From a virus, in the IMG/VR virus record IMGVR_UViG_3300025526_000059, positions 1 through 38,902 of that record: 38,902 nt of DNA; one strand, written 5' to 3'. Shown piece after piece: positions 3,348-37,981 of this stretch. Position 1 is the stretch's first letter. Every line of letters begins with the position of its first letter. The notes beneath the pieces were generated by a model, which searched no databases, was not told where the DNA came from, and saw only the letters and a program-made list of their open reading frames with translations. A program made the translations under genes and the position numbers.

Positions 3348-3547
3348 GCGCCTCGCTTCTGCCTGCGCTGCCAGTCGTCCCGACAGCCCGCGTCGCACCA
3401 GCGCCGTTCGCCTTCGACATCCTCGCCGCAGGACAGGCACATTCCGATGCCGGATGGTGGGTCTTTAGCAGATTGTTGCCTTTTAAGCAACGACGAACGC
3501 AGAAACAGGTCGGCGGTGTCGTTCGCCTGATCGATGATGTCAGCCAT
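3344..3547 (-). CDS. Small TraR/DksA-like zinc-finger protein
   Basis: A 67-aa protein starting MADIIDQAND. The C-terminal half carries CLSCG...RRWCDAGCRDDW, the four-cysteine zinc finger of TraR/DksA-type small phage proteins. Such proteins can bind RNA polymerase, but many phage copies of this size are uncharacterised. The start ATG (3545-3547) overlaps the last base of the polymerase stop (TAATG) and the 3' end overlaps the primase start, so it is translationally coupled in the replication operon. The gene contains a perfect 17-bp operator-like palindrome (3475-3491), the only perfect copy lying inside a coding region. Confidence 0.8.
   Translation of the reverse strand: MADIIDQANDTADLFLRSSLLKRQQSAKDPPSGIGMCLSCGEDVEGERRWCDAGCRDDWQRRQKRGA
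3475..3491. promoter_or_regulatory. Operator-like palindrome GTTGC-cttttaa-GCAAC
   Basis: Perfect copy of the 17-bp phage palindrome, inside the zinc-finger gene and about 130 bp upstream of the primase start on the leftward strand. Confidence 0.6.
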
Positions 3548-5661
3548 TATTTCCGATACCTCCGTCCTCTCCAGCCCGCGGCCACCACCGGCAGGCCGAC
3601 GGCCCAGTCCGGAATCGTGGCGCACTTGGCACAGAACTCTTTCAGGTCGCCGAAGCTTTCATCCACTTCGCCAGCGTTTTCGTCATGTGCGTGCAACACC
3701 GTGGGATAGCCGGCGGCATGACAGGTTTCCATGGCGAAGGCCAACAGGTCACGACTGATCGCCTGGTCGTTGTTTTCTACCAGCTTGCCGCCATAGGTCG
3801 AGATGCGCTGCCAGCGGCCATGCGCGTCGGGATCCGGGATAATCTTGTCCCGACCGCCCGCCGACTGGTCGATCTCGGTCATGTATGTGAGGCTGTCTTT
3901 CTCGTCGCCCCACGGCATCTGCAGCCGCATGATCTTCGGATACGGATAACAAAGCGTCCGGCCGCTTGGCAGCAGGCACCACAGGAAGCTGCCTTTCACC
4001 TTGTATTTGACCTGCCGGCCGGGTGCGCCGGCGGCAAAGGTCTTGCCCGGATTCAATACGGCACTGATCGCCGCCCGCTCGGTATCGCGCCAGAGCGAAA
4101 CGGTTTTCGGATGCTCGCCGCGCCACAGACCCTTGATCTCGTTGGCCTGTTCGTCGGGAATCTTGACCAGATACGTTTTGGCCATGGTCTGGAAAGCGCC
4201 AACGCCACCTTCGTAACCGCAGGCCAATTCCGGCACCTTGCCGAAGGTCTGGCGTTCTTCGTCGGTGATTTCTGCCACGGTCTTGTGCAGGATTTTGGCG
4301 GCCATGAGCTTGTAAATGTCCGCCCCGGTGCCGGCATCGAAATCACGGAACGCCTGCAGTTTCCATTCTTCACCGGCCAGCCAGGCGAGAACACGCCCTT
4401 CGATGTTGGAAAAGTCGGCTGTGATCAGGTGCTTTCCCGGTGCTGCCGTCAGCAGACCGCGCAGACAGGATGGCAGCACGTCCATGGGGCTGCCGTAAAA
4501 CAGGTCAATGTAGCGCGCCGCTTCGGCTGTCGGCATGCGCACCAGCGCATCCAGCACATCCTCGATCTCTGCCGGCTTCAGTTTCGGGCGAGGCAGATTC
4601 TGCAGCTGCACCCGACGACCAGCCCAGCGACCGGTCCGGGCGCCGTGATACTGGAACATACCGCGCAGCCGACCATCGGTACTGGCTGCTGAAATCATCG
4701 GGGTCAGCTTGGCGGTGCTACTACGACCCGCGCGCTGCCGCAGTTCTAGCGCCTCGCGCACGTCGGCTGGCAGGTCGTCGCGTTCCAGCAGGTCAGCCAC
4801 GTCAGCTTTGGCCAGCCCATCCTGGTTGAACCCACGCGTCCCCAGCCACTTCTTGATTCGGGCAACCTCGGTGCAGAAACCAACGAAGTTGCCGGTCACC
4901 TCGCGCATGCGAGCATTCAGCCGGTCCTGTTCGGCCTGCACGACGGCGATGGCAGCCTTCACGGCCGGCTGATCGACGAAGACGCCGCGATTATTGATCT
5001 GCTGGTCCAGCACCCAGAGGCGCTGTTCGGCATCGGAGAGCGGCATCAGCCGCTTCTCCAGCTCGCGCTCGACACGCACGTCCTGTCGGCAGTATTCACC
5101 CAGCTGGCGGCGCTTCTCCGGTTCGTCCCACCAGATGATCGTTCCGTCCGGCTTGATTTCACGCGGTCGGGCCATCTGCAGCATTAGCCGGCGGCCGACC
5201 ATGTCCTTTTGCTGCTGGATGCCGACGGCAGCAGCGGCCATTTCCAAGCTACCGGGCAGCGCCATGGCGTATGCCATCGCCATGGTGCAGCGGCATTGCT
5301 CGGGCTTCAGCGCCGGCCAGCCGTGGCGTGGCGCCATGATGTTGTTCCAAATGGCGAGCTCAAACGCCGCGTTGTGGATGACCACCAGGCCGCCGGCGGC
5401 GACATGCGCCAGCACGCGGTCAGTATCGTCGCTCCAGCCGGTGTTGAAATCCGCCGGTTCCAGCAGGCCGACATCTTCGTCTCCGAAGGCGAAAGCCATA
5501 CACCAGACGCCGGTATCGGGGTGCCGTGAGTAATTGTCGACACCAACATCGGCCAGTTCAACCGTACCGCGGGTCTCGAAATCGATATGAAGGATGACGC
5601 GCGGCGGGGGCGGTACCACCCAGCGACCGTCTAAACCCAGAATGGGAGTCTGGTCAGTCAT
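3547..5661 (-). CDS. polA: DNA polymerase I, family A (3'-5' exonuclease + polymerase)
   Basis: A 704-aa family A DNA polymerase that would replicate the phage genome. The exonuclease domain shows Exo I HIDFET (Asp27, Glu29), Exo II VIHNAAFELA (about 94-103) and Exo III YCRQD (about 190-194). The polymerase domain shows TGRWAG and LQNLPRP (about 343-359), motif A ADFSNIEGR with Asp at about 416, motif B FGKVPELACGY (about 473-483), and motif C HAHDEN (His659-Asp660-Glu661). All catalytic carboxylates are present. It resembles the short phage PolA type (Bcep22/BPP-1-like) and lacks a 5'-3' nuclease. The start MTDQTP is chosen because its ATG overlaps the previous stop by 8 nt. Confidence 0.92.
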   Translation of the reverse strand: MTDQTPILGLDGRWVVPPPPRVILHIDFETRGTVELADVGVDNYSRHPDTGVWCMAFAFGDEDVGLLEPADFNTGWSDDTDRVLAHVAAGGLVVIHNAAFELAIWNNIMAPRHGWPALKPEQCRCTMAMAYAMALPGSLEMAAAAVGIQQQKDMVGRRLMLQMARPREIKPDGTIIWWDEPEKRRQLGEYCRQDVRVERELEKRLMPLSDAEQRLWVLDQQINNRGVFVDQPAVKAAIAVVQAEQDRLNARMREVTGNFVGFCTEVARIKKWLGTRGFNQDGLAKADVADLLERDDLPADVREALELRQRAGRSSTAKLTPMISAASTDGRLRGMFQYHGARTGRWAGRRVQLQNLPRPKLKPAEIEDVLDALVRMPTAEAARYIDLFYGSPMDVLPSCLRGLLTAAPGKHLITADFSNIEGRVLAWLAGEEWKLQAFRDFDAGTGADIYKLMAAKILHKTVAEITDEERQTFGKVPELACGYEGGVGAFQTMAKTYLVKIPDEQANEIKGLWRGEHPKTVSLWRDTERAAISAVLNPGKTFAAGAPGRQVKYKVKGSFLWCLLPSGRTLCYPYPKIMRLQMPWGDEKDSLTYMTEIDQSAGGRDKIIPDPDAHGRWQRISTYGGKLVENNDQAISRDLLAFAMETCHAAGYPTVLHAHDENAGEVDESFGDLKEFCAKCATIPDWAVGLPVVAAGWRGRRYRK

Positions 5662-5956
5662 CGAACGGATCTGGGCTGGCGTTCGGCTCGGCAGTGGTAG
5701 CCAGCACCGCAACAGGCTTCGGCTCACGGATCCACGACGGCTTCTCGCGCTTCATGAACCCTTTGGCGATCGCCTTTTCGACGGCATCTTCCAGCGCCCA
5801 GTACATCGTTGCACCGGTGCCGAACTCGGCGACATCCGTGCCGTTGCCGATGTTCGCCTGCCAGCCATTATGGTTCTGGAACAGGTTGCGAATGTTGCAC
5901 TGGTGCTGGTTGACTAGCAGGATCAGGGCGTCAATGGGGTGCGGGGCATCGGTCAT
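5654..5956 (-). CDS. Conserved hypothetical phage protein, 100 aa
   Basis: Begins MTDAPHPIDALILLVNQHQ and contains NIRNLFQNHNGWQANIGNGTD. The C-terminal third is rich in Pro/Ala and ends in an acidic tail (PDPFDD), as in proteins that interact with replication machinery. It is predicted soluble with no membrane segment. The gene overlaps the deoxyribosyltransferase-like gene upstream (ATGA at 5953-5956) and the polymerase downstream (8 nt), so it belongs to the replication/nucleotide operon. Function unknown. The acidic tail resembles the C-terminal peptide of SSB-type proteins, but that is only a resemblance. Confidence 0.75.
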   Translation of the reverse strand: MTDAPHPIDALILLVNQHQCNIRNLFQNHNGWQANIGNGTDVAEFGTGATMYWALEDAVEKAIAKGFMKREKPSWIREPKPVAVLATTAEPNASPDPFDD

Positions 5957-6366
5957 GCGGCCCTCGCAATCAAAGCACGGGTTTGTTCGATCGACAGAAC
6001 CTCGATGGGCATGTGCTTTGACCGCCAGATATGGCCATCCATATTTGGCGGAATCGAGATAGCCCAGACCGGCTTGTCCCAGGCAAAGGCTTCCAGCACC
6101 TCGACTGCCACACTCGCGCCAACGCTCTTGCCGCCTGGATTAAACAGGAAGGCGACGGCATCGCACTCCTGCACCAGCTTGCGGAAGAAGGCCATCGGGT
6201 CGCTGTTGCGGGTCGGCGAACCCTGGAAGGCGCCGCTGATTGCGGGCGCGCTGGGATTCACGATCTCCCAGCCAATATGGAATTTCTCTTTCAGCAGCTT
6301 CAGCGCGGCACGCTCACGCTCGTTACCGTAGTCCGCCATGCAGTGGGCGAAGTAAATCTTTTTCAC
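5953..6366 (-). CDS. Nucleoside 2-deoxyribosyltransferase-like protein
   Basis: A 137-aa protein opening IYFAHCMADYGN and continuing with NPSAP, FFRKLVQECDAVAFLF and GASVAVEVLEAFAWDKPVWAI. This pattern fits the nucleoside 2-deoxyribosyltransferase/DUF4406 (SLOG-like Rossmann) group, in which an Asp and a Glu (here probably in ECDAV and VAVEV) serve nucleotide hydrolysis or transfer. It could act on nucleotides or nucleotide signals, but the substrate cannot be read from sequence. The start codon is GTG (6364-6366) preceded by AGGAG. It lies just downstream of an operator-like site and overlaps the next gene by ATGA. Confidence 0.72.
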   Translation of the reverse strand: MKKIYFAHCMADYGNERERAALKLLKEKFHIGWEIVNPSAPAISGAFQGSPTRNSDPMAFFRKLVQECDAVAFLFNPGGKSVGASVAVEVLEAFAWDKPVWAISIPPNMDGHIWRSKHMPIEVLSIEQTRALIARAA

Positions 6367-6418
6367 GGGTATCTCCTGCGTCTGGAAGAAGCGCCCGACA
6401 TTGCTGCCGGGCGCTGAC

Positions 6419-6435
6419 GGTGTGAAATAAGCAAC
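6419..6435. promoter_or_regulatory. Degenerate operator-like site GGTGT-gaaataa-GCAAC
   Basis: The right half and spacer (gaaataaGCAAC) are identical to the perfect site at 9544-9560; the left half has two mismatches. It lies between the SSB gene and the deoxyribosyltransferase-like gene. Confidence 0.4.
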
Positions 6436-6438
6436 AAT

Positions 6439-7023
6439 TTAGTCGAAGACAGAGCCCGCTCCGGCGCCGCCAGCTGCAGCGCCAGCACCTTCGACCGGCT
6501 TGAAGTCGTCGGTCGGACGGCTGCGACCGCCGAGCGGATCGCCGTCGCGCGTCTTCTGGATGTTGTTCAGGCCGAAACCCGCACCCTTGTTGCCCTTCTT
6601 GTCGAAGGCATAGGCGTTGTAGGAAATCTTCGCGTAGCAGCCCGAGTAGAAGTGCTGCGGTTCGATGATGTCCATCACGTTGTGGTCGACGACACCGGGC
6701 TTGCCGTTCTTCGCCGCCTTCTTGAAGGTGATGAAGACGTCGTCGCCGTTCTCGTAGCCGGCCGGAATGACCTGCTTGCCGTCCTTCATCGACCACCGTT
6801 CCTTGCACTTGCGGAACGGATTGCGAAGATTCTCGGGCCAGTTCTTCTTGTCGGCGCCAAACTTCTTGACCAGGGCTTCCTCGGCATCCTTCTTCATCGA
6901 CGTGAAGTCGGTGTTGGCCGGGAAAATGCCGACGACGGAATATTCCATTTCGCCGGACAGGTCGTTCTTCTGCGCCTCGAAAACGTGAACATACGAGACG
7001 CGGCATTCATGGGTGACAGCCAT
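6439..7023 (-). CDS. Single-stranded DNA-binding protein, DUF2815 family
   Basis: A 194-aa protein with the DUF2815 (phage ssDNA-binding, T7 gp2.5-like role) pattern: RVSYVHVFEAQK near the N-terminus, KYSVVGIFP-like MEYSVVGIFPANTD, NPFRKCKERW, and GCYAKISYNAYAFDKKGNKG(A)GFGLNN near residues 128-156. It ends with a Gly/Ala-rich linker and a short acidic tip (SVFD). It would coat single-stranded DNA and help the polymerase and helicase. It lies 14 bp downstream of the DUF2800 nuclease gene; an SSB/nuclease pair like this is common in phage recombination-replication modules. The start ATG (7021-7023) follows gaaaggatacccgc, a good ribosome binding site. Confidence 0.85.
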   Translation of the reverse strand: MAVTHECRVSYVHVFEAQKNDLSGEMEYSVVGIFPANTDFTSMKKDAEEALVKKFGADKKNWPENLRNPFRKCKERWSMKDGKQVIPAGYENGDDVFITFKKAAKNGKPGVVDHNVMDIIEPQHFYSGCYAKISYNAYAFDKKGNKGAGFGLNNIQKTRDGDPLGGRSRPTDDFKPVEGAGAAAGGAGAGSVFD

Positions 7024-7037: not shown

Positions 7038-8243
7038 TTACGGTTGGGGGATGGCGGCGAAGTCTTCCTTGGCCGACTTGGTGATCGCCGGCCGTTTGTC
7101 GTCCAGCGGTACGAGCGTGCTACCGCTCGATTCAGAAATGATCAGGCGCACCGGCGGCGCGTCGTCGCCCAGCAGTTCGCGGCGCTTCTCGGTGAGCTCG
7201 GCTTCCAGTTTCGGGAAAAAGGTTTTACCCAGATCCTTTTCCAGCTGGGCCGGCGACCGCAGGCTGCGCGGTTCGAAGATCGTGTCGTCGGGAATGGCAC
7301 GCGCCTGCAGCGCCTCGATCACGTCGCCTTCGCTGGCATAACTGCGGATCGCGCGCTTGGCGACCAGCTTGTGGCCAAAGGACGCACCACGACCAGCCTC
7401 GGCCTCGGCATAAGCGAACTCGTCCAGCGCCTTGATCCAGGCTTTCAGCGGTTCGCGGCTTTCCAGCGCCTTCTGCAGTTCCGCCGGGTCGTAGGGTTGT
7501 CCCTTGGTAAACTCCAGCTTGGCCATCTGCTGTGCGCGGTCTTTCAGGCCGGGACACAGGGCGGCTGCCGGACAGAACCGGCAGTGATTGCCCGGCACCA
7601 GCGGTGCGTCCGGTGCCTCGGTCGCCACGGCGAACGCCTTCAGGTCGGTCTTGAAATCCAGCAGGTCGATGGCGTCGATGTCGTAGTGACGGATCGGGCC
7701 GTCCGCGTGTTCACAACGTGGCTGGCAGATTTCCATGCGCACGGTCTTGGCCGGCAGGTTCAGCGCCAGCAGGGCGCCGAGCGCGTAATACTTCAGCTGG
7801 CTGTTTTCGACCACGTTCACCGGGACGCCGGCGCCATGCTTGTAGTCGCGCACGATCAACAGGCCCTTGGATGCCCGCCAGCGCACATGGTCGGCGGTGC
7901 CAAAGCAGCCCGGATGTACGGCGGACAGATCGAAACGCTGCTCGATGAAGTCCTGGTCCTCGGCTTCGAAATCGGCCCAGATATGCCGAACATAGGTATC
8001 GACGGCATCGGCCATCTCGCGGTCAACCTTGAAGGTCCGACCGTCGAGACTGACTTCCAGGCCGACATATTTTCGCGGGTCTGTACGCTTGGCCAGGCAT
8101 TCGGCGGCAAGCGCATGCGCGTCGCTGCCTTCCTCGGCATAGGCGCTGGTGGTCTTGGCAACGCCCTGCGACAGCCGGACGGAACCGGGACAGGCGCTCC
8201 AGCGATACATGCTGCTGGCGCCGATACGGGAATGTGCGCTCAC
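7038..8243 (-). CDS. DUF2800 PD-(D/E)XK nuclease, Cas4/RecB-like
   Basis: A 401-aa nuclease of the phage DUF2800 group. Landmarks: SACPGS (Cys18), EEGSDAHALA (about 37-46), GTADHV with Asp118, RDYKHG giving the D-x-K pair Asp133/Lys135, SQLKYYALG (Gln149), and a cysteine cluster CRFCPAAALCPG (Cys221, Cys224, Cys230) that with Cys18 could ligate an iron-sulfur cluster as in Cas4/AddB. It probably resects DNA ends for phage recombination or packaging intermediates. It is coupled to the GapR-like gene upstream (ATGA at 8240-8243) and to the SSB gene downstream. Confidence 0.87.
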   Translation of the reverse strand: MSAHSRIGASSMYRWSACPGSVRLSQGVAKTTSAYAEEGSDAHALAAECLAKRTDPRKYVGLEVSLDGRTFKVDREMADAVDTYVRHIWADFEAEDQDFIEQRFDLSAVHPGCFGTADHVRWRASKGLLIVRDYKHGAGVPVNVVENSQLKYYALGALLALNLPAKTVRMEICQPRCEHADGPIRHYDIDAIDLLDFKTDLKAFAVATEAPDAPLVPGNHCRFCPAAALCPGLKDRAQQMAKLEFTKGQPYDPAELQKALESREPLKAWIKALDEFAYAEAEAGRGASFGHKLVAKRAIRSYASEGDVIEALQARAIPDDTIFEPRSLRSPAQLEKDLGKTFFPKLEAELTEKRRELLGDDAPPVRLIISESSGSTLVPLDDKRPAITKSAKEDFAAIPQP

Positions 8244-8503
8244 CCGAACACCTCCATATAGCGTTCGAGAAGTGCTTGCTGTTCGGCCAGATCGGCGCTG
8301 TCCAGCTTGCGCAGGCGCACGACCTGGCGAACGATCTTGGGGTCGAAACCGTGGGCTTTCACTTCGGCATAGATTTCCCTGATATCGTCAGAGAGCCCCT
8401 TCTTTTCTTCCTCCAGCCGCTCGATACGAGCGACGAGGGATCGAAGTTGATCGCCGGCGACACCGCCGGAATTATGGCCGGGTTTGGCAGGCGTATCGGT
8501 CAT
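8240..8503 (-). CDS. GapR-like DNA-binding protein (DUF2312)
   Basis: An 87-aa protein with the DUF2312 pattern: a flexible head (MTDTPAKPGHNSGG), a long helix LRSLVARIERLEEEKKGL, then IREIYAEVKAHGFDPKIVRQVVRLRK and a C-terminal helix. Chromosomal GapR of Caulobacter and relatives belongs to this family and binds overtwisted DNA as a coiled-coil oligomer ahead of polymerases, stimulating type II topoisomerases. A phage copy may support replication or transcription of its own DNA, or interfere with host GapR. The family is essentially alphaproteobacterial, one of the main clues to the host. It overlaps both neighbours by ATGA. Confidence 0.85.
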   Translation of the reverse strand: MTDTPAKPGHNSGGVAGDQLRSLVARIERLEEEKKGLSDDIREIYAEVKAHGFDPKIVRQVVRLRKLDSADLAEQQALLERYMEVFG

Positions 8504-8986: not shown

Positions 8987-9505
8987 TTACGCGGCGATCT
9001 TGGCGCGGCACTTCAGCGCGATGGCGCCGAAATGCTCGGGATGCTCGGCGAGCTCCTTCACCTTCGACATGCCGTGTTCCGCCAGGATGGCGCTGACCGC
9101 TTCCAGGCCGGCATTGCCGCCGATCTTCGCGTTCAGATCCTGCAGCAGCTTCTTCACGTCTTCGAAGGTGAGGGTTTCTTCCGCCGGCTTGTCGGCTGAA
9201 GAAGGACCGGCCGAAGTCGCAGCATCGGAAGACGACGCGGCTTCGGCCGGCGCAGATTCCCCGCTGTTGGGTTCAGGGGAAGGAGCGGCAACGGGGGTCT
9301 CGGATTCTGCAGGTTTGGTGCGCGGGCGGCCCGGCTTGCGGGCGGCGCCGGTTTCGGCCAGCTGCGCGGGCGGGATGACGCCGGGGGCAGGCAGGTCGAT
9401 GGTCGGAGCGCCGCTGATTTCGGTGACCGGCTGGCCCAGCAGGACAGCCATTTCGCGGCGGGCGTCTTCAGCGGTTTCAGCGTCAATCGAGATATGGACA
9501 GACAT
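8987..9505 (-). CDS. AT-hook-containing phage protein (Rrp5-like C-terminal domain)
   Basis: A 172-aa protein. The N-terminal 45 residues (MSVHISIDAETAEDARREMAVLL) look like a small folded domain. Residues about 57-70 contain RKPGRPRTK, an AT-hook core that would sit in the minor groove of AT-rich DNA. An Ala/Pro/Ser-rich acidic linker follows, then a C-terminal domain (ETLTFEDVKKLLQDLNAK ... VSAILAEHG) like that of phage proteins often annotated as Rrp5-like. ATG at 9503-9505 follows AAAGGAAT. A perfect operator-like palindrome lies 39 bp upstream, so this gene probably begins a regulated unit. Confidence 0.72.
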   Translation of the reverse strand: MSVHISIDAETAEDARREMAVLLGQPVTEISGAPTIDLPAPGVIPPAQLAETGAARKPGRPRTKPAESETPVAAPSPEPNSGESAPAEAASSSDAATSAGPSSADKPAEETLTFEDVKKLLQDLNAKIGGNAGLEAVSAILAEHGMSKVKELAEHPEHFGAIALKCRAKIAA

Positions 9506-9543
9506 GGATGATTCCTTTCGGGTTGTTGCCACGGTACGCCGAT

Positions 9544-9560
9544 GTTGCGAAATAAGCAAC
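9544..9560. promoter_or_regulatory. Operator-like palindrome GTTGC-gaaataa-GCAAC
   Basis: Perfect copy; the symmetry extends to GATGTTGC/GCAACATC (9541-9563). It lies exactly between the SNF2 gene stop and the AT-hook gene. Confidence 0.7.
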
Positions 9561-9561
9561 A

Positions 9562-10974
9562 TCAATCTTCAGAAAAAGGATCGGCAGGGGTGTCAAAGAG
9601 CTCGGTCAGGTCGCGGGTCTTGCGTTTCAGCACCTGCTGAACGCGCTCGTCGACACTGTTGGCCATCGAGAAAAACCGCACGGTGACGGGCTTTGTCTGG
9701 CCGATGCGATGCACCCGCATCACGGCCTGCTGGTTGTTGGCGGGCACCCAGTCAGCTTCCACCACACCGACATGGTGCGCCGCGGTCAGGGTGATCGCCG
9801 TGCCTGCCGCCACAGTCTGGCCAACGAAAACACGGCAGCGCGGATCTTCCTGGAACCGTTTCACAGCCCGGTCGCGGCGCTTGGGGTCGGTACCACCGTA
9901 GATCGACACGGCGCCAAAGTCCTTCAGGCCCTCCTGCAGTTCTTCGATCACGCAACGATGAACCCCGAACAGCACAATCTTCTCGTAGGCGCCGGATTCG
10001 AGCTCACCGCGCACCATGTCCAGCACCGAATAGACCTTCTGCAGACCGATCCAGCGGCGAAGGGTCTTCACCTTAGGGTCCAAACCTTCCAGGATCTTCA
10101 TGCCATCGTTGCCCAGTCCGAGATCGGCAACCAGGGTTTGCAACGCACGCTGCTGCGCATCGATATCAATGCCGAACTGCTTGGGCTGGATGATGTAATT
10201 GGCAAAGTGCTTTTCTTTCACCTCGATCGGCACGTCTCGCGGCTCGACCACGACATCCTGATAGAAAATCTTCGGTAGTTCGGTCATCACCTGGTCCTTC
10301 TTACGACGCAGCATCACGGGCTGCAAAATGGCCTTCAACTCGTCAACGTTGCGGTTCCCGCGGACCACCATTTTCGACCGCAGATGCCCGCCCCCACCCC
10401 GGAACTGCACTTCTTCCTCGACTGTGTAACGCTCCATGAACTGGCGGTCGGTCAACGTCGTAACGCCGAACACATACAGCAGAATCCACAACTCACCCGA
10501 ATGGTTCGGCGCCGGTGTGCCGCTCAGCGCCCAGACCCGATCACAGCGATGGATGATGCCGTTCTTCCCCATCACCGCCTTGGCGCGGCCAGCGCCGGCA
10601 CTTTTCAGGAAGTGGCATTCATCGAGAAAACAGGCGGCCCAACGCCGACGCGAGAGTTGCGCCATAACCGCGTTGTTTGCGGTCAAGTCGTAAGAGCAGA
10701 TCGTCACGTCGGCGGAGGCAATCGCGCTCGCGTCGGCTGCCTGGATCACTACAGCAATATTCGAGGTGCGCGATGAAAACTTCTGCCACTCCCGCATCCA
10801 GTTGTAGCGGGCCACCGCTGGGCAAAGGATCAGAACCGGCCTGGCGTTCAACAGGTCCGAGGCGACGACGGCCTGGGCCGATTTGCCCAGTCCCATCTCG
10901 TCTGCCAGTAACGCGTATCGTTTCGATGCCAGCCATTCGCTTCCCCCTTTCTGGTACGGGAACAACGTGTTCAT
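9562..10974 (-). CDS. SNF2-family DEAD/DEAH-box helicase
   Basis: A 470-aa SNF2-type superfamily 2 ATPase. Motif I DEMGLGKS (about 25-32), Ia LILCPAV (about 48-54), motif II as LDECH (about 117-121, DECH rather than DEAH), motif III LSGTPAPN, then in the second lobe IVLFGVHR, motif V GTAITLTAAHHV and motif VI AVMRVHRIGQT. Compact phage SNF2 proteins of this type accompany replication genes; they may remodel protein-DNA complexes or help origin use. The ATG at 10972-10974 is preferred to an upstream TTG. The leader is about 130 bp with a possible promoter, so this is likely the head of the leftward replication operon. Confidence 0.9.
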   Translation of the reverse strand: MNTLFPYQKGGSEWLASKRYALLADEMGLGKSAQAVVASDLLNARPVLILCPAVARYNWMREWQKFSSRTSNIAVVIQAADASAIASADVTICSYDLTANNAVMAQLSRRRWAACFLDECHFLKSAGAGRAKAVMGKNGIIHRCDRVWALSGTPAPNHSGELWILLYVFGVTTLTDRQFMERYTVEEEVQFRGGGGHLRSKMVVRGNRNVDELKAILQPVMLRRKKDQVMTELPKIFYQDVVVEPRDVPIEVKEKHFANYIIQPKQFGIDIDAQQRALQTLVADLGLGNDGMKILEGLDPKVKTLRRWIGLQKVYSVLDMVRGELESGAYEKIVLFGVHRCVIEELQEGLKDFGAVSIYGGTDPKRRDRAVKRFQEDPRCRVFVGQTVAAGTAITLTAAHHVGVVEADWVPANNQQAVMRVHRIGQTKPVTVRFFSMANSVDERVQQVLKRKTRDLTELFDTPADPFSED

Positions 10975-12171: not shown

Positions 12172-12510
12172 TCACACCACCAGCCGGGTTTTCAGCCCGT
12201 ACTTCTCAGATGTGGTGTTGAACTTGCGCTGCACCACGTCAGCCAGATCAAGACCCAGCGACATGGCAATCAGGTCAACGCAAATGACCACATCAGCCAG
12301 TTCGTCGGCCGCGTCTTCCAGCGAAGCGCGCGAACCGCGAATGCCAAGTCGCTCACGCTCCAGCTTTTTCAGGACGTTGCAGGCTTCGCCAACTTCACCG
12401 GCAAGCTCGTTGCCGCGGTAGGAGAGCGTCAGTTGATTGCCGACGTCCCATTCCTGCTGTCGAACCTCGTTGGCGATCCGCAGGTCGGCGAAATTGATGT
12501 GCTTTTTCAT
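12172..12510 (-). CDS. MazG-like nucleotide pyrophosphohydrolase
   Basis: A 112-aa all-helical protein with the MazG signature: GNELAGEVGEACNVLKKLERE (about 33-53) followed by LEDAADELADVVICVDLIA (about 64-82), giving the ExxE...ExxD/DExxD metal-binding acids. It would convert (d)NTPs to (d)NMPs and pyrophosphate, so with the HD hydrolase and DUF5664 it forms a dNTP-remodelling cassette. The ATG overlaps the pentapeptide gene's stop (ATGA at 12507-12510). In Z-genome phages the MazG-like MazZ partners DatZ and PurZ; no PurZ is seen here. Confidence 0.85.
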   Translation of the reverse strand: MKKHINFADLRIANEVRQQEWDVGNQLTLSYRGNELAGEVGEACNVLKKLERERLGIRGSRASLEDAADELADVVICVDLIAMSLGLDLADVVQRKFNTTSEKYGLKTRLVV

Positions 12511-13289
12511 ACCGAAATCCTCTCGGCACGCTCGCGTAGATCCGCCATCGCTTTTTCGTTGCTGCAGTAGAAATCCGGCACCGGCAGGTCCGGAGCCGAA
12601 GCCGCGTATATCAGCGCACCGGCCGCTGCGGACCCGATGGCGGCTTCAAGATCGTAACCTGCCTTACCGGCCAGGTGGATGTGCCAGCCTGCACGACAAT
12701 GGGTCGTTTCGCAGACATGCCACCCGCCCATTTCCAGTTCGCCGCCTGCTTCGATGGCGGCAAGGACTGCCTTGTCGATATCCGGAACAACCGGGATCGG
12801 GGGCAGGACGGCGCCACTCAGGACGGCGCCACTCAGGTCGGCGCTCCTCAGGACGGCGCCACTCAGGTCGGCGCCACTCAGGACGGCGCTCCTCAGGTCG
12901 GCGCCACTCAGGACGGCGCGGCTGAGGTCGGCGCTCCTCAGGTCGGCGCGGCTGAGGTCGGCGCGGCTGAGGTCGGCGCTCCTCAGGACGGCGCCACTCA
13001 GGTCGGCGCCACTCAGGACGGCGCTCCTCAGGTCGGCGCCACTCAGGACGGCGCGGCTGAGGTCGGCGCTCCTCAGGACGGCGCCACTCAGGTCGGCGCC
13101 ACTCAGGACGGCGCTCCTCAGGTCGGCGCCACTCAGGTCGGCCTTGGCCGCGATAGCCATTTTCACCGCCGCGCCGAGCTTCACGCCCTCGCTCGCAGAT
13201 TCGAATTTGGCTTCCAGATCACATTCGAAGACCGGATTGCCGGTCCAGCGGCTGCGAATGGTGAACTTGAACGTTTTCACAGTTGACAT
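12507..13289 (-). CDS. Pentapeptide-repeat protein
   Basis: A 260-aa protein. Residues 1-49 form a distinct head (MSTVKTFKFTIRSRWTG). Residues about 50-159 are about 22 tandem A(D/V)LXX pentapeptides, which would build a right-handed quadrilateral beta helix. The C-terminal domain contains GGWHVCETTHCRAGW and SNEKAMADLRERAE. Some pentapeptide proteins (Qnr, MfpA) mimic DNA and shield gyrase, but the C-terminal domain here is that of common phage pentapeptide proteins of unknown role. The repeats are almost identical at DNA level (12805-13141), so copy number may drift. ATG at 13287-13289 lies just downstream of an operator-like site, making it the first gene after cro. Confidence 0.88.
   Translation of the reverse strand: MSTVKTFKFTIRSRWTGNPVFECDLEAKFESASEGVKLGAAVKMAIAAKADLSGADLRSAVLSGADLSGAVLRSADLSRAVLSGADLRSAVLSGADLSGAVLRSADLSRADLSRADLRSADLSRAVLSGADLRSAVLSGADLSGAVLRSADLSGAVLSGAVLPPIPVVPDIDKAVLAAIEAGGELEMGGWHVCETTHCRAGWHIHLAGKAGYDLEAAIGSAAAGALIYAASAPDLPVPDFYCSNEKAMADLRERAERISV
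12805..13141. repeat. Nearly identical 15-bp tandem repeats within the pentapeptide gene
   Basis: About 22 copies of 15-bp units, mainly of three types: GGCGCCACTCAGGAC, GGCGCTCCTCAGGTC and GGCGCGGCTGAGGTC, differing at few sites. A higher-order block encoding ADLRS-AVLSG-ADLSG-AVLRS-ADLS occurs three times, a sign of recent internal duplication. Confidence 0.85.
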
Positions 13290-13300
13290 TTTCTCGCTCC

Positions 13301-13317
13301 GTTGTGGTTTTAGCAAC
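13301..13317. promoter_or_regulatory. Operator-like palindrome GTTGT-ggtttta-GCAAC
   Basis: One mismatch in the left half. It lies between the Cro-like gene and the pentapeptide gene, 12 bp upstream of the latter's start. Confidence 0.6.
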
Positions 13318-13324
13318 ACTCAAA

Positions 13325-13627
13325 TCAACGCGGAAACAGGTCTTCGGGCGTCAGAACGATGCCTTCCAGCCGCGCGGCGGCAAGAATGTCGTTCATGGCT
13401 TTGGCCGGGATCAAACCGCCGGTGCCCCCGTTCTTTGCGGGCAAATCCCAGCGGTAAATCGTCGAGATGTCGCGCACAGGGCGACGGTCGCGGCGAAATT
13501 CCTGCAACGCTTTCAAAGCCTGGTGCAGCTTCGGCACACCGCCGAATCGGGCGAACACACGACCCGCCTGGGTCGTTGCTGCGTTCGGGGCCGAGGGAAC
13601 CAGATTCGATTGCTGTGCGTTGCGCAT
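13325..13627 (-). CDS. Cro-like transcriptional regulator
   Basis: A 100-aa protein divergent to the repressor. The central part VFARFGGVPKLHQALKAL...VRDISTIYRWDLP (about 24-63) fits a short HTH, and it ends LIPAKAMNDILAAARLEGIVLTPEDLFPR, the typical tail of phage Cro/YdaS-type proteins (GxIPxxxxxxILxxAxxxGIxLTPxDLFP). It probably represses or tunes the repressor promoter and starts the leftward early programme. ATG at 13625-13627 sits only 10 bp from the operator-like palindrome 13638-13654, with no recognisable Shine-Dalgarno sequence. Confidence 0.78.
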   Translation of the reverse strand: MRNAQQSNLVPSAPNAATTQAGRVFARFGGVPKLHQALKALQEFRRDRRPVRDISTIYRWDLPAKNGGTGGLIPAKAMNDILAAARLEGIVLTPEDLFPR

Positions 13628-13637
13628 AAGTCGAGTT

Positions 13638-13654
13638 GTTGCAGTTTACGCAAC
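13638..13654. promoter_or_regulatory. Operator-like palindrome GTTGC-agtttac-GCAAC
   Basis: Perfect copy, immediately upstream of the Cro-like gene; the symmetry extends by one base each side (T...A). It lies 3 bp downstream of a TTGACA on the minus strand, where a bound protein would block the leftward promoter. Confidence 0.75.
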
Positions 13655-13657
13655 ATA

Positions 13658-13663
13658 TGTCAA
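13658..13663 (-). promoter_or_regulatory. Consensus -35 hexamer (TTGACA) of the leftward early promoter
   Basis: Perfect TTGACA on the minus strand 31 bp upstream of the Cro-like start. The matching -10 is poor (an AACAAC-like hexamer overlapping the operator), so the exact promoter is uncertain. Confidence 0.4.
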
Positions 13664-13760
13664 CCGGAAAAACGCAAAAGGTGGAAAACATGATGCCGCA
13701 TACAAACAAAACTAGGGCTATCCGAAAGGTTGTGATACCGTCGGTTGTGGTAGATTCACG

Positions 13761-13777
13761 GTTGCATGATAAGCAAC
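13761..13777. promoter_or_regulatory. Operator-like palindrome GTTGC-atgataa-GCAAC
   Basis: Perfect copy 62 bp upstream of the short repressor start, overlapping the -35 and spacer of the candidate repressor promoter, consistent with autoregulation. Confidence 0.75.
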
Positions 13778-13790
13778 AAGCCTATAGAAT
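13762..13790 (+). promoter_or_regulatory. Candidate repressor promoter
   Basis: TTGCAT (13762-13767) and TAGAAT (13785-13790) are spaced by 17 bp; the -10 has five of six consensus bases. The operator-like palindrome covers the -35. Transcription would start near 13797, before the ATG at 13840 but inside the longer possible reading frame. Confidence 0.45.
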
Positions 13791-13839
13791 TGTTGAACTT
13801 CATTCGCAAACGACGAAATCGAAAAACCGGGGGACCAAC

Positions 13840-14508
13840 ATGGCAAAGGGGAAAGCGCGGGCGAAAGTCGAGCGCACCAGCCGCAAAGCGAGAGACGAAG
13901 AAGCCAAGATTGGCGAGGTCGACAAGACCTGGTTTGAAAGCCGGGCGCGGGATATGGGAATCAATTTCTCCCGAATCGCTGAAATGCTCGGTATGAACCG
14001 ATCGATCGTCAGCCGGATGATGTCCGGCGAGCGCGAAGTGTCGAATCAGGAAGCCAACGAGCTCGCCACCATCCTGCAGGTCTCGTTTGACGATGTGGTC
14101 GCGCATCTTGGCGTGAAGCCCAAAACAGACCCGAATGACTTCCTACCGGTTGTCGGCGCCATATCGGCGGACGGCATCATTCACCCGAAGCTGCCCCGCG
14201 GGGCGTTCAAATCGACACGGCGCATCCCTGGTTTACCGCATGACTGTTCCGGCCTCTGGGTGGACGCTCCAGGATCCTGGCTTGACGGTTCTGTGCTGTA
14301 TTACGTCACCGGCTTTACGGTGGAACCGAACGCGGTAGGCCGCGCCGCGGTGATCGGGCTGAAGGATGGCCGGAAATTCGTTCGCATCCTCATTCACGGC
14401 ACCAGATCGAACCGCTGGCGCACACAGCCGCTTAACGGCCCGCTGGACCCGCAGGATTACGAGGTTGCCTGGGCAACGCCAGTCCGGGCTATCGTCCTGC
14501 CGACCTAA
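13840..14508 (+). CDS. HTH repressor with degenerate S24/LexA-like C-terminal domain
   Basis: A 222-aa regulator, probably the lysogeny repressor. After a basic head (MAKGKARAKVERTSRKAR) it has an XRE-type HTH (about 31-90; INFSRIAEMLGMNRSIVSRMM holds the two recognition helices). The C-terminal part (about 100-222) runs LPVVGAISADG, SGLWVDAPGSWLDGSVLYYV and KFVRILIHG...WATPVRAIVLP, resembling the S24/LexA fold, but I see no clear catalytic Ser-Met/Lys pair, so self-cleavage is doubtful. The start follows GGGGGA. The frame stays open upstream to an ATG at 13690 with its own ribosome binding site (AAGGTGG), giving a possible 272-aa form. Its likely targets are the GTTGC-N7-GCAAC sites. Confidence 0.82.
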   Translation: MAKGKARAKVERTSRKARDEEAKIGEVDKTWFESRARDMGINFSRIAEMLGMNRSIVSRMMSGEREVSNQEANELATILQVSFDDVVAHLGVKPKTDPNDFLPVVGAISADGIIHPKLPRGAFKSTRRIPGLPHDCSGLWVDAPGSWLDGSVLYYVTGFTVEPNAVGRAAVIGLKDGRKFVRILIHGTRSNRWRTQPLNGPLDPQDYEVAWATPVRAIVLPT

Positions 14509-14790
14509 TCTGTTGCCGTTCTAGTTAAAAATCCCGGCAATCAGCAGTTATTCTAGTGTGTTCTAGTGTGCCAGGTCGCAACTGGAACCGTAAGCCTCTG
14601 TAATTGCAAGGCGTTCTAGTTACACCAGTCATTCTAGTGTGAATCTGCGGTAGGCTACGGAAAAACCAATAGGGTGAGGGCGCCGCGCGGCCCGCTATTA
14701 GATTATATAAGGTATATAGTATTCTTTATTCTCTATAGAATAACTAGAACACTAGAAAACATAATTGAAAATAAGGGCTTAAAATACCCT

Positions 14791-14807
14791 GTTGTGAAAA
14801 TTGCAAC
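14791..14807. promoter_or_regulatory. Operator-like palindrome GTTGT-gaaaatt-GCAAC in the candidate origin
   Basis: One mismatch in the left half. The right half overlaps the third inverted TTCTAGT-type repeat, so an operator protein and an origin protein could compete here. Confidence 0.5.
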
Positions 14808-14825
14808 TAGAACACACTAGAACGG

Positions 14826-15849: not shown

Positions 15850-15862
15850 GGCGGTTCTCCAT

Positions 15863-15879
15863 GTTGCGTAACTAACAAC
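15863..15879. promoter_or_regulatory. Operator-like palindrome GTTGC-gtaacta-ACAAC
   Basis: One mismatch in the right half; closest of three sites to the leftward small operon start. Confidence 0.55.
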
Positions 15880-32300: not shown

Positions 32301-32840
32301 GATTCTCCCCTCGGCTCGGTGGCCCGGGCGCTGACAACGCCGATCCTGATGGAAAACTACCTGCGGGCCTGGACGGGCGGACTGGGCATGTATGCGCTGC
32401 AGATCGCCGACAAGGGGCTACGCGAGGCCGGCGCGGTCCCGGATCCGGTCAAGCCGGCTGCCACTCTGGCTGACATTCCGGTGGTGAAGGCGTTTGTGGT
32501 GCGGTACCCCAGCGCGTCCGCTCAGTCTATCCAGGATTTCTATGACCGGTTCGAGGCAAAAAAGACGGTATGGAGCACCGTCATGGCAAAGGCAAAGGAC
32601 GGTGATGCCGTTGCAGCGGAACAGGCCGCCGGATACATGCCCAGCGCCCTGGTGCAGCTGGACGGCATTCAAGACGCCTTGTCCCAGCACGGCCAAATTA
32701 TCCGGCTGATTTCGAATAACCCCGAGATTCCGGCCGGCGAAAAACGGCAACTCATTGATACGCTTTATTTTCGGATGATCGAAATCGCCCAGAGCGGAAA
32801 CGCCGCGCTGGATCAGGCTGAGAAAACGCTTGGAAAGTGA
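29382..32840 (+). CDS. Large internal/ejection protein with LPD38 domain (T7 gp16-like position)
   Basis: A 1152-aa protein, the largest in the genome. The N-terminal 50 residues repeat AGFTDAEIGEWAVGKRKEL / AGFAEGEIDEWFGAEK, a duplicated motif. The C-terminal third has AYNMITAFGNASIQGIDRTV, TLPSVLLWWANHDDP and PFELGLVFGSATERALD, matching large polyvalent protein-associated domain 38 (LPD38). It is probably ejected with the DNA and spans the envelope. I see no transglycosylase catalytic motif, unlike T7 gp16. An operator-like site follows its stop directly. Confidence 0.82.
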   Translation: MSATQEINDLRAAGFTDAEIGEWAVGKRKELSEAGFAEGEIDEWFGAEKPAKASPGLIERLKQGNALGRVLAAAQEGASNAFGSEQIGFSPDSEKWLRDAGIFADPETGRAGPIRFLNEAMLRPAAVGLDAVARAFEAGLGGFSAAAGQIATEAGSDQGKALERDLNMMGQIAGIELGKAPFTRVQRLPTGEVQDVVVAHGLPTKTDFEGAAVTVALKADKNVKAKLERLYEERGLHPAEVAHDALADPVLLQELLADNMEMPARYRGQPKKVEVPEPQATVALAEGSLDAAKQKVLEKISVGDSDPRKKITFQDVYTQMIDDLNPIKELEKSVDKTLPASESPYQITRLSRGTFGKADQMLEYGTYDFNTYATNGKGLRQVLDPVRDDLNGLRAYAAASRAVELEGRGIKSGLDLDAAKQVMAGGKNRYEPVMRELVEYQDRVAAYLRDSGVLSKEAYDAMREANKNYVPFFRVMDDGAGGPGVGSGVRNPIKAIKGSERDIVDPLESVIKNTYVYTAVAERNAIGKAFVDMAAKSGRMDDLAKKIDAPVKATTVTDGEMAAFLKAHGIDKMPEDLLTVFRAARQPLRDNQIAVFQNGKRSVYELDPDVATALKNVDAQTASLMTKILAFPAQTLRAGAVLSPDFIVRNVTRDFLTAFVNSKGVFTPLDTLKGAKSLLTKDADFQNWLKSGGANSALVSVDRQYLQNSIQSLTAETGLGTRAWNVVKSPVDGLRVVSELMENATRLGEFKKVADGVVDKATLQQAGMASREVTLDFARIGASMRAYNMITAFGNASIQGIDRTVRQFGEKPLGTTARVAAGVTLPSVLLWWANHDDPRWKEIPRWQKDLFWIVMTEDHVFRIPKPFELGLVFGSATERALDAWFEENPNAFKDFDRSMLQAFLPSTLPTIAQPIVEQFANRSSFTGAPLIPQRLEKLLPEYQYTEYTTETTKALGALVGAFPGVKDRAVSDRDSPLGSVARALTTPILMENYLRAWTGGLGMYALQIADKGLREAGAVPDPVKPAATLADIPVVKAFVVRYPSASAQSIQDFYDRFEAKKTVWSTVMAKAKDGDAVAAEQAAGYMPSALVQLDGIQDALSQHGQIIRLISNNPEIPAGEKRQLIDTLYFRMIEIAQSGNAALDQAEKTLGK

Positions 32841-32857
32841 GTTGCTATTTAAGCAAC
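32841..32857. promoter_or_regulatory. Operator-like palindrome GTTGC-tatttaa-GCAAC
   Basis: Perfect copy, starting at the base after the stop codon of the large internal protein and 19 bp before the tail fibre ATG. Confidence 0.7.
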
Positions 32858-32876
32858 AACGAGGCAGAATGGGTCC

Positions 32877-34016
32877 ATGACGGTCAACACCACCGATAAT
32901 CGCGTTTCCTACACCGGCAACGGCACGATCCCGTCGGTCCCGATCCCGTTCTATTTCCTGGAAGACGAAGACCTGGTCGTCGTCGAAGTGGTTATCGCCA
33001 CCGGCGTTGAAACGGTGCTGTTGCTGACAACCGATTATTCGGTGACCGGTGCCGGCGATCCGGTTGGTGGTACGGTTACCGGGGTGGCGACGTTGCCCAG
33101 CACGAAACGCTGGGAAATTTACCGCGATCCCGACATGACACAGGAAGTCGAGCATGTGGATAACGATCCGCTGCCGGCTGCCTCAATCGATCAGCCGCTG
33201 GACAAGCTGACCATGATCGCCCAGCGCACGCGCGAACTGACAGAACGTTCGCTGCGGCAGCCGGATGGCGATTCCGACACGATCGGGTCAATTCCGGCAC
33301 AGGTTGCCCGTGCCTCCATGTATCTGGCCTTCGATGCGGATGGCGATCCCATCGCGGCAACCGCGCCGGAAGGCGGGAATGTCGTGTCGGCGTTCATGGC
33401 TACGGTCCTGGACGACGCCAATGCTGCCGCGGCGCGTACAACGCTGGGCGCTCTTGGTGCCGGTGATGATGGCACTGTACTGACCGGATTGCTGAAGACC
33501 GGACTACATTCCGTTTTCGTACCGGCGCGCGCAATGATCCCGGCGAGCACCAGCGGCTGCGCCGATGTAGCCCAGGCGGAAAGCACCACCAACAAGGTCA
33601 ATGACGAGTTTCTTGCTTTCGATGCTGCCAGCATTGAATACGCAGGCTTTCATTTCCGCGCCCCGAAATCGGCCGACGAGACGGCCGGCTTCACAGTCGA
33701 GTTCGAATGGAGTGAGACGGCCGGTGCTTCGTCGCACGATTGCGTGTGGCAGGTCGAGATGCAGGCGCAGGGTGACGGCGACACGATCGACAGTGCCTGG
33801 GGCACGGCAGTCACAGTCACGGATACCGGAACATCCGGCACACGCCGCAAGGCTGTGACCGCCACGGTGACCCTTGGTGGTAGCTGGGCAGAAGGCGATG
33901 TCGTCCATGTCCGCCTGAGTCGGAAGGCCACCGATGCCGCCGACACGCTCAATGTCGATGCCAGGCTGCACGGGGTGCTGCTCGGCATGACGTTAGCCGC
34001 CGGCAACGACGCCTAG
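32877..34016 (+). CDS. Tail fibre protein with T7-type N-terminal domain
   Basis: A 379-aa protein. The N-terminal 140 residues (NRVSYTGNGTIPSVPIPFYF, LLLTTDYSVTGAGDPVGGTV, LPSTKRWEIYRDPDMTQ, QPLDKLTMIAQRTRELTERS) are the T7 gp17-type tail-attachment domain. Residues about 180-210 contain AAAARTTLGALGAGDDG, a shaft repeat. The rest is a Thr/Ala-rich beta region that may be the receptor-binding head or a joint for the lectin-like protein downstream. It starts a tail-fibre unit behind an operator-like site. Confidence 0.84.
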   Translation: MTVNTTDNRVSYTGNGTIPSVPIPFYFLEDEDLVVVEVVIATGVETVLLLTTDYSVTGAGDPVGGTVTGVATLPSTKRWEIYRDPDMTQEVEHVDNDPLPAASIDQPLDKLTMIAQRTRELTERSLRQPDGDSDTIGSIPAQVARASMYLAFDADGDPIAATAPEGGNVVSAFMATVLDDANAAAARTTLGALGAGDDGTVLTGLLKTGLHSVFVPARAMIPASTSGCADVAQAESTTNKVNDEFLAFDAASIEYAGFHFRAPKSADETAGFTVEFEWSETAGASSHDCVWQVEMQAQGDGDTIDSAWGTAVTVTDTGTSGTRRKAVTATVTLGGSWAEGDVVHVRLSRKATDAADTLNVDARLHGVLLGMTLAAGNDA

Positions 34017-37065: not shown

Positions 37066-37502
37066 CCGGCAAGTTTTTCATTCGTGAAGTTGACACCGCC
37101 GACAGCGAGATCAGCGAGACGATCGAGAAACTACACCGCATAACCCTCCGGGAAGACGAAGTGCCCGATCTTCTTCGCGGTCATTGGTGGCTGGTTTACA
37201 ACGGTGTTGGCCAGGCTGTCGGTTATTGCGGGCTCTACCCATCGTATCGCTACGCCAATGCCGGCTACCTGATTCGCGCAGGCGTGGCAGCGAAACACCG
37301 CGGCAATGGGCTGCAGAAACGCATGATCCGGGTACGCGAGGCCAAGGCCCGGCGGCTGGGTTGGGACTGGCTGTTCTCGGATACCTGCGAAAATCCCGCC
37401 AGCGCCAACAGCCTGGCAGCCTGTGGCTTCCGGATGTTCGAACCGAAATTGCCATGGAACAGCAATCACAAGCTGGCGCTCTACTGGAGGAAGCGGCTTT
37501 GA
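37062..37502 (+). CDS. GNAT-family N-acetyltransferase
   Basis: A 146-aa protein starting at the ATGA overlap (37062-37065). GLYPSYRYANAGYLIRAGV, then VAAKHRGNGLQKRMIRVRE (about 75-93), the acetyl-CoA-binding motif R-x-x-G-x-G/A, then DTCENPASANSLAACGFRMF, the N-P-x-S-x-x-x-Y/C-G-F end segment. It would acetylate an amine on a protein or small molecule; target unknown. It sits between the phosphoesterase and endolysin, overlapping the endolysin start (TTGA). Confidence 0.83.
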   Translation: MTGKFFIREVDTADSEISETIEKLHRITLREDEVPDLLRGHWWLVYNGVGQAVGYCGLYPSYRYANAGYLIRAGVAAKHRGNGLQKRMIRVREAKARRLGWDWLFSDTCENPASANSLAACGFRMFEPKLPWNSNHKLALYWRKRL

Positions 37503-37957
37503 CCGAAGACCGCGCCTTCGCGCTCGATGTCCTGGCGCGCACGCTCTGGGGCGAGGCACGCGGCGAGGGTGAGACTGGCCAGAAGGCTGTTGCGGCGGTC
37601 ATCTGTACGCGCGTGATGCGCGGCGCCCGGTACCAGGCCAAATGGGGCACGCCGCATCCGCTGTTTGGCGACGGCACTTTCAAACAAGCCTGTCTCCGGC
37701 CGCGACAGTTCAGTTGCTGGAACGCTGGTGACCCCAATCTGCCGAAGATGAAGGCTTTGAATCTGACCGATCCGGCGCTGGCCGGTCTGCTGCGCATTGC
37801 GGAGGACGCGGTCGATGGCCGGATCATTGACCCCACCGGCGGTGCCACGCACTACCTGACGAAAGCAGCCTACGACAAGGTCGCGGCGGATCACTGGTGC
37901 AGGACAAAGCCATCGATCTGGCAGCACGGAAACCACCTTTTCTTTAAAGACCCGTAA
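37499..37957 (+). CDS. SleB-like cell wall hydrolase (endolysin)
   Basis: A 152-aa endolysin. Hydrolase_2/SleB pattern: RTLWGEARGEGETGQKAVAA with catalytic Glu at about 19, VICTRVMRG, RQFSCWNAGDPN, and GATHYLTKAA...W. The start is the TTG at 37499, overlapping the GNAT stop, because AGGAGG lies at ideal spacing; a longer frame from ATG 37454 lacks a site. It would cleave peptidoglycan after holin action. No signal peptide, so a canonical holin-dependent enzyme. Confidence 0.87.
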   Translation: MTEDRAFALDVLARTLWGEARGEGETGQKAVAAVICTRVMRGARYQAKWGTPHPLFGDGTFKQACLRPRQFSCWNAGDPNLPKMKALNLTDPALAGLLRIAEDAVDGRIIDPTGGATHYLTKAAYDKVAADHWCRTKPSIWQHGNHLFFKDP

Positions 37958-37964
37958 CCAGTGT

Positions 37965-37981
37965 GTTGCTAAAAAGGCACC
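37965..37981. promoter_or_regulatory. Operator-like palindrome GTTGC-taaaaag-GCACC
   Basis: One mismatch in the right half. It lies between the endolysin and the secreted protein gene, 22 bp before its ATG. Confidence 0.5.

Follow-up and report, generated by a model that had tools for sequence, protein, structure and literature searches.

Introduction

To our knowledge, dispersed operators have been described for a few phages, mostly those of actinobacteria. The sites of the phiC31 repressor are 17-bp inverted repeats. Here we analyse the palindromes GTTGC-N7-GCAAC scattered over the virus record IMGVR_UViG_3300025526_000059, the whole stretch of 38,902 bases (G+C 60%) being referred to as the window, together with the CI-like repressor gene that it carries (13840-14508, + strand). 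Judged from sequence comparison, the palindromes are very probably operators of this repressor, which would directly repress many transcription units of the prophage, the late ones included.

The available portion of PMC4557955 gives phiC31 one repressor and many dispersed sites (18-30, a figure covering phiC31 and L5 together), as is proposed here; it places the phiC31 repressor gene downstream of the structural genes, whereas the repressor gene of the window is divergent from the early genes. phiC31 belongs to another host phylum, and it is likened here by the layout of its sites. L5 and the Cluster A phages also have dispersed repressor sites, and the earlier note on this DNA had named the L5 stoperators as the closest precedent. 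According to the excerpts available of PMC4557955 and PMC4351075, however, a monomer binds the L5 sites, which are asymmetric, are oriented with transcription and block elongation, whereas the sites of the window are symmetric dyads, many of them lying over promoter-like elements, and as a mechanism the analogy finds no support. Dispersed direct repression in the window is, on the best reading, closer to phiC31 than to L5-type stoperators.

Cluster O mycobacteriophages likewise carry dispersed 17-bp palindromes (TGTTCGG-N3-CCGAACA, 34 in Corndog, many intergenic); in the excerpts of PMC4351075, the function of these palindromes is unknown, about one third lie in coding sequence, and the phages form no stable lysogens and have no integrase. 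The repressor gp33 of BPs has extra operators in intergenic regions outside the immunity region, in contrast composed of 12-bp half-site units and bound by a different repressor (PMC4557955, in the text available). The CI proteins of 186 and lambda share with the window's repressor a helix-turn-helix (HTH) domain and a LexA-like C-terminal fold, whereas the lambda operators lie only at OL and OR (PMC4557955, same excerpt) and those proposed here are spread over the prophage. The literature covered on stoperators, epsilon15, phiC31-type repeats and Bcep22/BcepIL02 gave no report of these dyads, although the Bcep22/BcepIL02 genome paper, outside that coverage, may describe them; in the available part of the JC1 paper (PMC9144972), words in 'palindrom-' are absent, as are 'operator' and 'promoter'.

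Form and location of the dyads

Seven exact copies of GTTGC-N7-GCAAC are present in the window, as had been read earlier (left ends of the cores at 3475, 9544, 13638, 13761, 18182, 21536 and 32841), against a mean of 0.04 and a maximum of 1 in 100 dinucleotide shuffles; the pattern is commoner than in shuffled sequence. With up to one mismatch, 15 matches were found where the shuffles gave 2.35 (maximum 7), and with up to two the excess was modest (46 against 28.6 expected). Eight matches carry a single mismatch. Six of these (13301, 14791, 15863, 15892, 15911 and 37965) figured among the 15 copies listed in the earlier note; the others, at 5697 and 33092, were absent from that list and were not recovered by the iterated matrix. 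The site at 6419 has two mismatches, yet it was found by all four matrices applied. Fourteen of the 15 listed copies are credible, and the one at 11014 (GTTGCAGCCTAAGCGGG) falls away with three mismatches and a rank of 4511th with a mixed matrix. The enrichment is tied to the 7-bp gap, since a scan of gaps from 0 to 30 gave seven exact matches at gap 7 and none or one at the others, except for three at gap 26.

In full extent the site measures 21 bp rather than 17, a dyad that reads ATGTTGC-N7-GCAACAT; most of its information lies at positions ±4 to ±9, and its centre is AT-rich. Among the window sites the arms are symmetric at ±6 and ±8 in 14/14 cases and at ±5 and ±7 in 86%, and symmetry drops to 0.14-0.29 at ±1 to ±3. 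By our own gene calls, the 17-bp cores are noncoding in all 14 credible sites, in agreement with the intergenic placing of the earlier note, while noncoding sequence makes up 5.3% of 17-bp windows. The window therefore holds many near-identical symmetric sites distributed genome-wide, as dispersed operators would be.

Two matches of the iterated matrix are doubtful, 8806 lying inside a coding region and 16583 in an AT-rich run adjoining a weak fifteenth candidate dyad (16606-16626). Two further palindromes, GCGCC-N9-GGCGC and GGCGC-N11-GCGCC, rival the dyads in number, each having 11 copies in the window, all but one of them within 12810-13130; they are unrelated to the dyads and are 15-bp coding repeats (12804-13142) inside the pentapeptide-repeat gene.

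The CI-like repressor and the dyads of related phages

The proposed binder, a protein of 222 aa, is CI-like as judged by an HTH_3 domain (PF01381, 25.7 bits against a cut-off of 23, with PHROG repressor families also matching) and by the predicted LexA/CI-like fold of its C-terminal domain. Its fold model, with a predicted local distance difference test score (pLDDT) of 86.7, resembles the lambda, 186 and LexA repressors, and Foldseek matched it to lambda CI fragments at E < 1e-3. The Z values are modest: the C-terminal domain aligns with 186 CI at Z 8.8 (root mean square deviation, rmsd, 3.2 over 104 residues) and with LexA at Z 8.5-8.6 (rmsd 3.1-3.4). The positions of lambda Ser149 and Lys192, the self-cleavage dyad, were unmatched by eye, only a 4-bit lambda alignment spanning the domain. 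The CI of 186 is a non-cleaving repressor. An exact-core dyad (13759-13779) lies upstream of the repressor's own gene and provides the -35 of a promoter-like element (TTGCAT-N17-TAGAAT).

A search with the terminase returned 70 viral loci, which with the Manatee Spring phage make 71 terminase relatives, and a search with the repressor returned 29 loci; tblastn with the repressor in phages gave six records, five from Burkholderia and one from Mesorhizobium. The terminase relative L035 encodes a repressor 25% identical to that of the window; GTTGM-N7-KCAAC occurs in it six times and the reversed pattern once. Symmetric matrices were then refined by iteration in each genome, where chance would yield about one match, with the reversed sequence as control (its matches in brackets). 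They gave 17 (1) dyads in the window, 11 (1) in L035, 12 (0) in G008, the contig of L080, 14 (2) in the Nitrosovibrio Nv4 prophage, and, among Burkholderia phages, 12 (3) in the first 50 kb of JC1, 20 (2) in BcepMigl and 19 (0) in the first 50 kb of BcepIL02. Noncoding positions account for 12/12 dyads in JC1, 17/20 in BcepMigl and 13/19 in BcepIL02, and the coding matches of BcepIL02 (6/19) and BcepMigl (3/20) are probably in part due to chance. In each of these three phages a dyad lies between the annotated repressor gene and the gene divergent from it.

The arms keep one 21-bp register and have diverged in sequence, from ATGTTGC in the window to TGTTGA in L035, TGTTGTG in G008 and ATGGTTCGAT in the Burkholderia phages. 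A matrix from L035 only, made with no window data, filled the first 13 places of its ranking in the window with 13 of the 14 sites, and one from G008 and Nv4 placed 13 of the 14 in its top 14. The matrices used here and in the co-occurrence scan were built from subsets of the iterated matches that were chosen by hand: 8/11 (L035), 8/12 (G008), 10/14 (Nv4), 9/12 (JC1), 11/20 (BcepMigl) and 11/19 (BcepIL02). The recognition-helix regions of the repressors read NRSIVSRMM in the window, DKSSLSRTL in L035, DPSALSRTL in L080 and QHSQLSLTL in BcepMigl, which suggests from sequence that they vary together with the dyad arms.

Seven loci were also compared by position, at a fixed cut-off and with coordinates relative to the terminase stop, the genes of the relatives being unannotated. 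A dyad near -2290, in the window at the small terminase promoter, is also present in L013, L014, L034 and L035; one near -1560 to -1650, before the large terminase, is common to the window (16606), L014, L034, L035 and L068; one near 0 to the window, L014 and L030; and one near +3.1 to +3.9 kb, at the border of the major head protein gene in the window, is also found in L013, L014, L034, L035 and L068. Several of these position-conserved dyads score low (window 16606, 10.6; L034 at -2293, 9.2; L068 at +3314, 9.5). Other palindromes were also seen. The terminase relatives L018 and L024, which lack GTTG dyads, have three copies each of TGTATC-N6-GATACA, perhaps the sites of another repressor, and L071 has five copies of GTCTC-N5-GAGAC in 21 kb.

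Co-occurrence of dyads and repressor

Two automatic searches for dyads upstream of repressors had failed, one swamped by chance palindromes in GC-rich genomes and the other using too strict a criterion (a dyad in 1/14 loci), and were replaced by a scan whose matrix combined sites of the window, G008 and BcepIL02, at a cut-off of four matches. At least four dyads were present in 16/16 of the repressor-fetched loci tested first and in 27/29 overall, 24 of the 29 lying outside the matrix's own phages or copies of the window. Kinship within this set has to be kept in mind: L001 is a window copy, L080 and L081 fall in matrix phages, L079 is BcepMigl, L089 is L035, and near copies occur (for example L084/L085, L090/L104, L091/L092 and L093/L094).

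Among the first 39 terminase relatives (38 of the 70 loci and the Manatee Spring phage), at least four dyads were found in 4/5 with the repressor and in 1/34 without it (Fisher p = 3e-4). With the second round, which added the other 13 repressor-fetched and 32 terminase loci, the figures for all 71 terminase relatives became 5/6 and 4/65, although the last 32 are mostly fragments of 4-8 kb in which a missing repressor means little. L002, among the six repressor-bearing terminase relatives, is a window copy, and L013 and L078 are one Nv4 prophage. In L014, L030 and L068 the dyads were noticed first and the repressors found by a later search, so that a repressor guessed from dyads was correct in three of four contigs, L034 being the fourth.

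The binder might instead be another phage regulator to which the repressor is merely linked, either the product of 13325-13627 or an Ogr-type late activator, which we consider improbable. An uncharacterised leftward open reading frame (ORF) of 100 aa (13325-13627, - strand) does lie divergent from the repressor, and activators can use dispersed dyads too. However, this ORF, whose identity is unconfirmed, matches no Pfam or PHROG family and does not align with its JC1 counterpart, JC1_8, whereas the repressor is shared; its single-sequence model was poor (pLDDT 53). Many dyads, moreover, cover -35 or -10 elements, an unusual place for an activator. The earlier note had offered the repressor or a Cro-like protein as the binder: co-occurrence and promoter-like overlap support the CI-like repressor as controlling a regulon of dispersed operators, and the Cro-like protein, for which 13325-13627 was the candidate, is unconfirmed.

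Neighbouring genes and promoter-like elements

The remaining dyads (21-bp coordinates, no strand assigned) were placed against the genes beside them. On the left, exact-core dyads lie upstream of the prim-pol gene 1167-3440 (-) at 3473-3493 and of the gene 8987-9507 (-) at 9542-9562, the latter gene having its ATG at 9505-9507 with a ribosome-site-like sequence; the dyad with two core mismatches (6417-6437) lies between an SSB-like gene (6439-7023, -) and the gene 5953-6366 (-). Close to the repressor, a one-mismatch dyad (13299-13319) precedes the pentapeptide-repeat gene 12507-13289 (-), an exact-core dyad (13636-13656), adjoining a TTGACA hexamer, precedes the leftward ORF 13325-13627, and a one-mismatch dyad (14789-14809) lies in an AT-rich repeat region 3' of the repressor. 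This region (14517-14830) contains many direct and inverted copies of TTCTAGTGTG / ACTAGAACAC, as well as 17-nt inverted arms at 14551-14567 and 14806-14822, and may serve as an origin of replication or represent another set of binding sites.

Further right, a one-mismatch dyad (15861-15881) precedes a small leftward gene called by eye (15701-15849), and a tandem pair with one mismatch each (15890-15910 and, 19 bp on, 15909-15929) precedes the small terminase gene (15947-16492). The weak candidate at 16606-16626 stands before the large terminase gene (16640-18178). Exact-core dyads follow at 18180-18200, 2 bp past the terminase stop, with a promoter-like TTGACT-N17-TATGTT overlapping its left end; at 21534-21554, between a protease-like gene and the major head protein gene (21768-22664), with TTGCCA-N17-TATAAG; and at 32839-32859, abutting a stop that ends at 32840 and upstream of a tail-fibre-like gene (32877-34016). 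The last dyad (37963-37983, one mismatch) is 3' of an endolysin-like gene (37184-37957) and upstream of 38004-38363.

The best sigma70-like hexamers near the dyads often take one of two geometries, either with the TTG of a -35 within the left arm and a -10 16-18 bp on, or with a -10 at the dyad centre. As control we used the opposite strand of the same palindrome, which is fair because the TTG belongs to the motif itself. The promoter score was higher in the gene direction at 13/13 window sites (p = 1.2e-4), 9/12 sites in JC1, 9/12 in BcepIL02 and 12/15 in BcepMigl, and, with L035 as the fifth set, at 47/58 pooled (p = 1e-6). Sites that were coding or had no clear downstream gene were omitted (window 1/14, JC1 0/12, BcepIL02 7/19, BcepMigl 5/20, L035 5/11).

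These elements also bear on whether the dyads work as L5-type stoperators, the bound repressor halting elongating RNA polymerase within transcription units and not acting on initiation, which is unlikely. The sites are dispersed, those at 18180, 21534, 32839 and 37963 directly follow stop codons in apparent operons, and some have no good promoter-like hexamers, all of which would suit such a role. In contrast, the dyads are symmetric and lack the oriented asymmetric motif given for L5 sites in the excerpts cited above (PMC4557955, PMC4351075), and promoter-like hexamers overlap them in the direction of the genes.

Neighbouring dyads show a preferred phasing. With all iterated matrix matches kept except 8806, 16583 and 16606 of the window, 17 of the 20 pairs no more than 60 bp apart are spaced 19-22 bp, 10 of them exactly 19, where a rough simulation gave a mean of 2.5 and a maximum of 8. 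In BcepIL02, the pair 30195/30215 has TTGTAA in one dyad and TAGAAT in the next, which together form one promoter-like element.

The 19-20 bp tandem phasing suits turns of the DNA helix, and so argues against transcribed RNA hairpins (5-bp stem, 7-nt loop) that would control translation or termination, an explanation we regard as very unlikely. The arms can pair, the symmetry of the window sites stops before the centre as a loop would permit, and three of the eight 37-nt stretches folded, out of 14 sites, reached z < -3 (9534, 13628 and 21526). The other five, however, lay between -0.75 and -1.86, Rfam at gathering scores gave no match in the window, and the sites overlap hexamers that would stay untranscribed. 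Symmetry extends to ±2 and ±3 in 55-82% of sites in Nv4, BcepMigl and BcepIL02, too tight near the centre for a loop, and is lower, 12-62%, in L035, G008 and JC1.

From these observations we infer binding, promoter activity and direct repression by the CI-like protein. A repressor dimer would occupy each 21-bp dyad, and many of the dyads appear to be integral to promoters, with the left-arm TTG forming part of the -35 or the AT-rich centre the -10, while tandem pairs 19-20 bp apart could span both hexamers of one promoter. Because many dyads are built in this way, the bound repressor would keep RNA polymerase off the promoters of the replication, terminase, head, tail-fibre and lysis regions; it would also repress its own gene and probably that of the integrase.

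The integrated prophage

The window has a leftward block of genes on the - strand (DNA polymerase A, prim-pol, SNF2 helicase and nucleotide-metabolism genes), and to the right of the repressor lie terminase, connector, head, tail, fibre and endolysin-like genes. The large terminase is about 35% identical to those of epsilon15 and phiV10 and 59% to that of an environmental phage. A phage-encoded GapR-like DNA-binding protein (PF10073) is encoded at 8240-8503.

Two contigs of one alphaproteobacterial genome assembly, JAGXRD010000061.1 among them, carry the window sequence on into host-like ORFs, named by eye, on both sides. The 3' part of a tRNA-Leu gene recurs as a 60-bp direct repeat, one copy starting 120 bp left of the window and the other about 1.29 kb right of it, and an integrase-like ORF, also named by eye (L117:10808-12139), takes in the window's final 48 bases and continues rightward. 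Since tRNA-Leu attachment (att) repeats, an integrase-like ORF and host-like ORFs flank it, the window, as read from this context, makes up the greater part of a prophage of about 40.3 kb integrated in the host chromosome, the virus record ending short of the att sites. Two further candidate dyads, one with one mismatch and one with two, lie beyond the window near the integrase-like gene; the one-mismatch dyad (ATGTTGCTCCTTAAGCAAAAC) stands at L117:12036-12056 and precedes a likely internal start codon of this ORF by about 46 bp. Over 12877-14789, which spans the start of the pentapeptide-repeat gene and the repressor, the window is 98.7% identical to L119, another contig of this assembly and the third to match, which suggests a second, diverged copy or a related prophage.

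The host assembly also allowed us to ask whether the dyads are sites of a host regulator or of DNA architecture (partition, packaging or GapR-like) carried by the phage. The GapR-like protein speaks for this. However, exact GTTGC-N7-GCAAC occurs six times outside phage contigs in about 4.8 Mb of host assembly against seven times in the 38.9 kb of phage, and the arms vary between phages, which makes such an origin highly improbable.

Discussion

Several observations weigh against operators of the CI-like repressor. Gene starts were partly picked with the sites in view, on ribosome-site-like sequence, and the site at 14789 has no obvious target gene. The Lessievirus (Burkholderia) matrix alone finds 7/14 window sites in its top 15, and the single site that foreign matrices miss is the repressor's own upstream dyad (13759). 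As to co-occurrence, L088 and L100, repressor loci of 4-5 kb, show three dyads each, L068 has a repressor and three dyads, and L034, L008, L061 and L065 reach four matches with no detected repressor, their reversed controls giving 1, 4, 1 and 2; L008, L061 and L065 are short fragments with 4-5 matches, and the L034 contig ends about 1.5 kb upstream of the terminase, short of where L035 has its repressor. As to promoters, neither geometry fits the site at 18180 (nor, in JC1 and BcepIL02, the dyads between repressor and divergent gene), and those at 3473, 6417, 9542 and 37963 are poor, scoring 4.6-8.3 against a mean of 3.6 (sd 2.8) in random windows that are mostly coding and make a lenient control. 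At 13299 the best -10 runs into the start codon, at 32839 it stops 6 bp short of it, and in L035 the direction effect was not significant (4/6, p = 0.5).

The comparison with relatives leads to a broader proposal, for and against which we see the balance as even: that phages of two or more structural lineages (epsilon15-like and Bcep22-like) share a control plan in which one CI-type repressor directly silences most transcription units through promoters built from operators, two dyads 19-20 bp apart covering the -35 and the -10. The arms would drift along with the repressor, giving each lineage a private, genome-wide immunity code that survives the exchange of capsid genes. Dispersed sites of this kind appear here in proteobacterial phages that have lambda-type repressors, cultured Burkholderia phages included. 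This arrangement suggests a testable rule tying repressor sequence to operator sequence, which could predict which phages share immunity, and noncoding dyads allow the presence of a repressor to be guessed.

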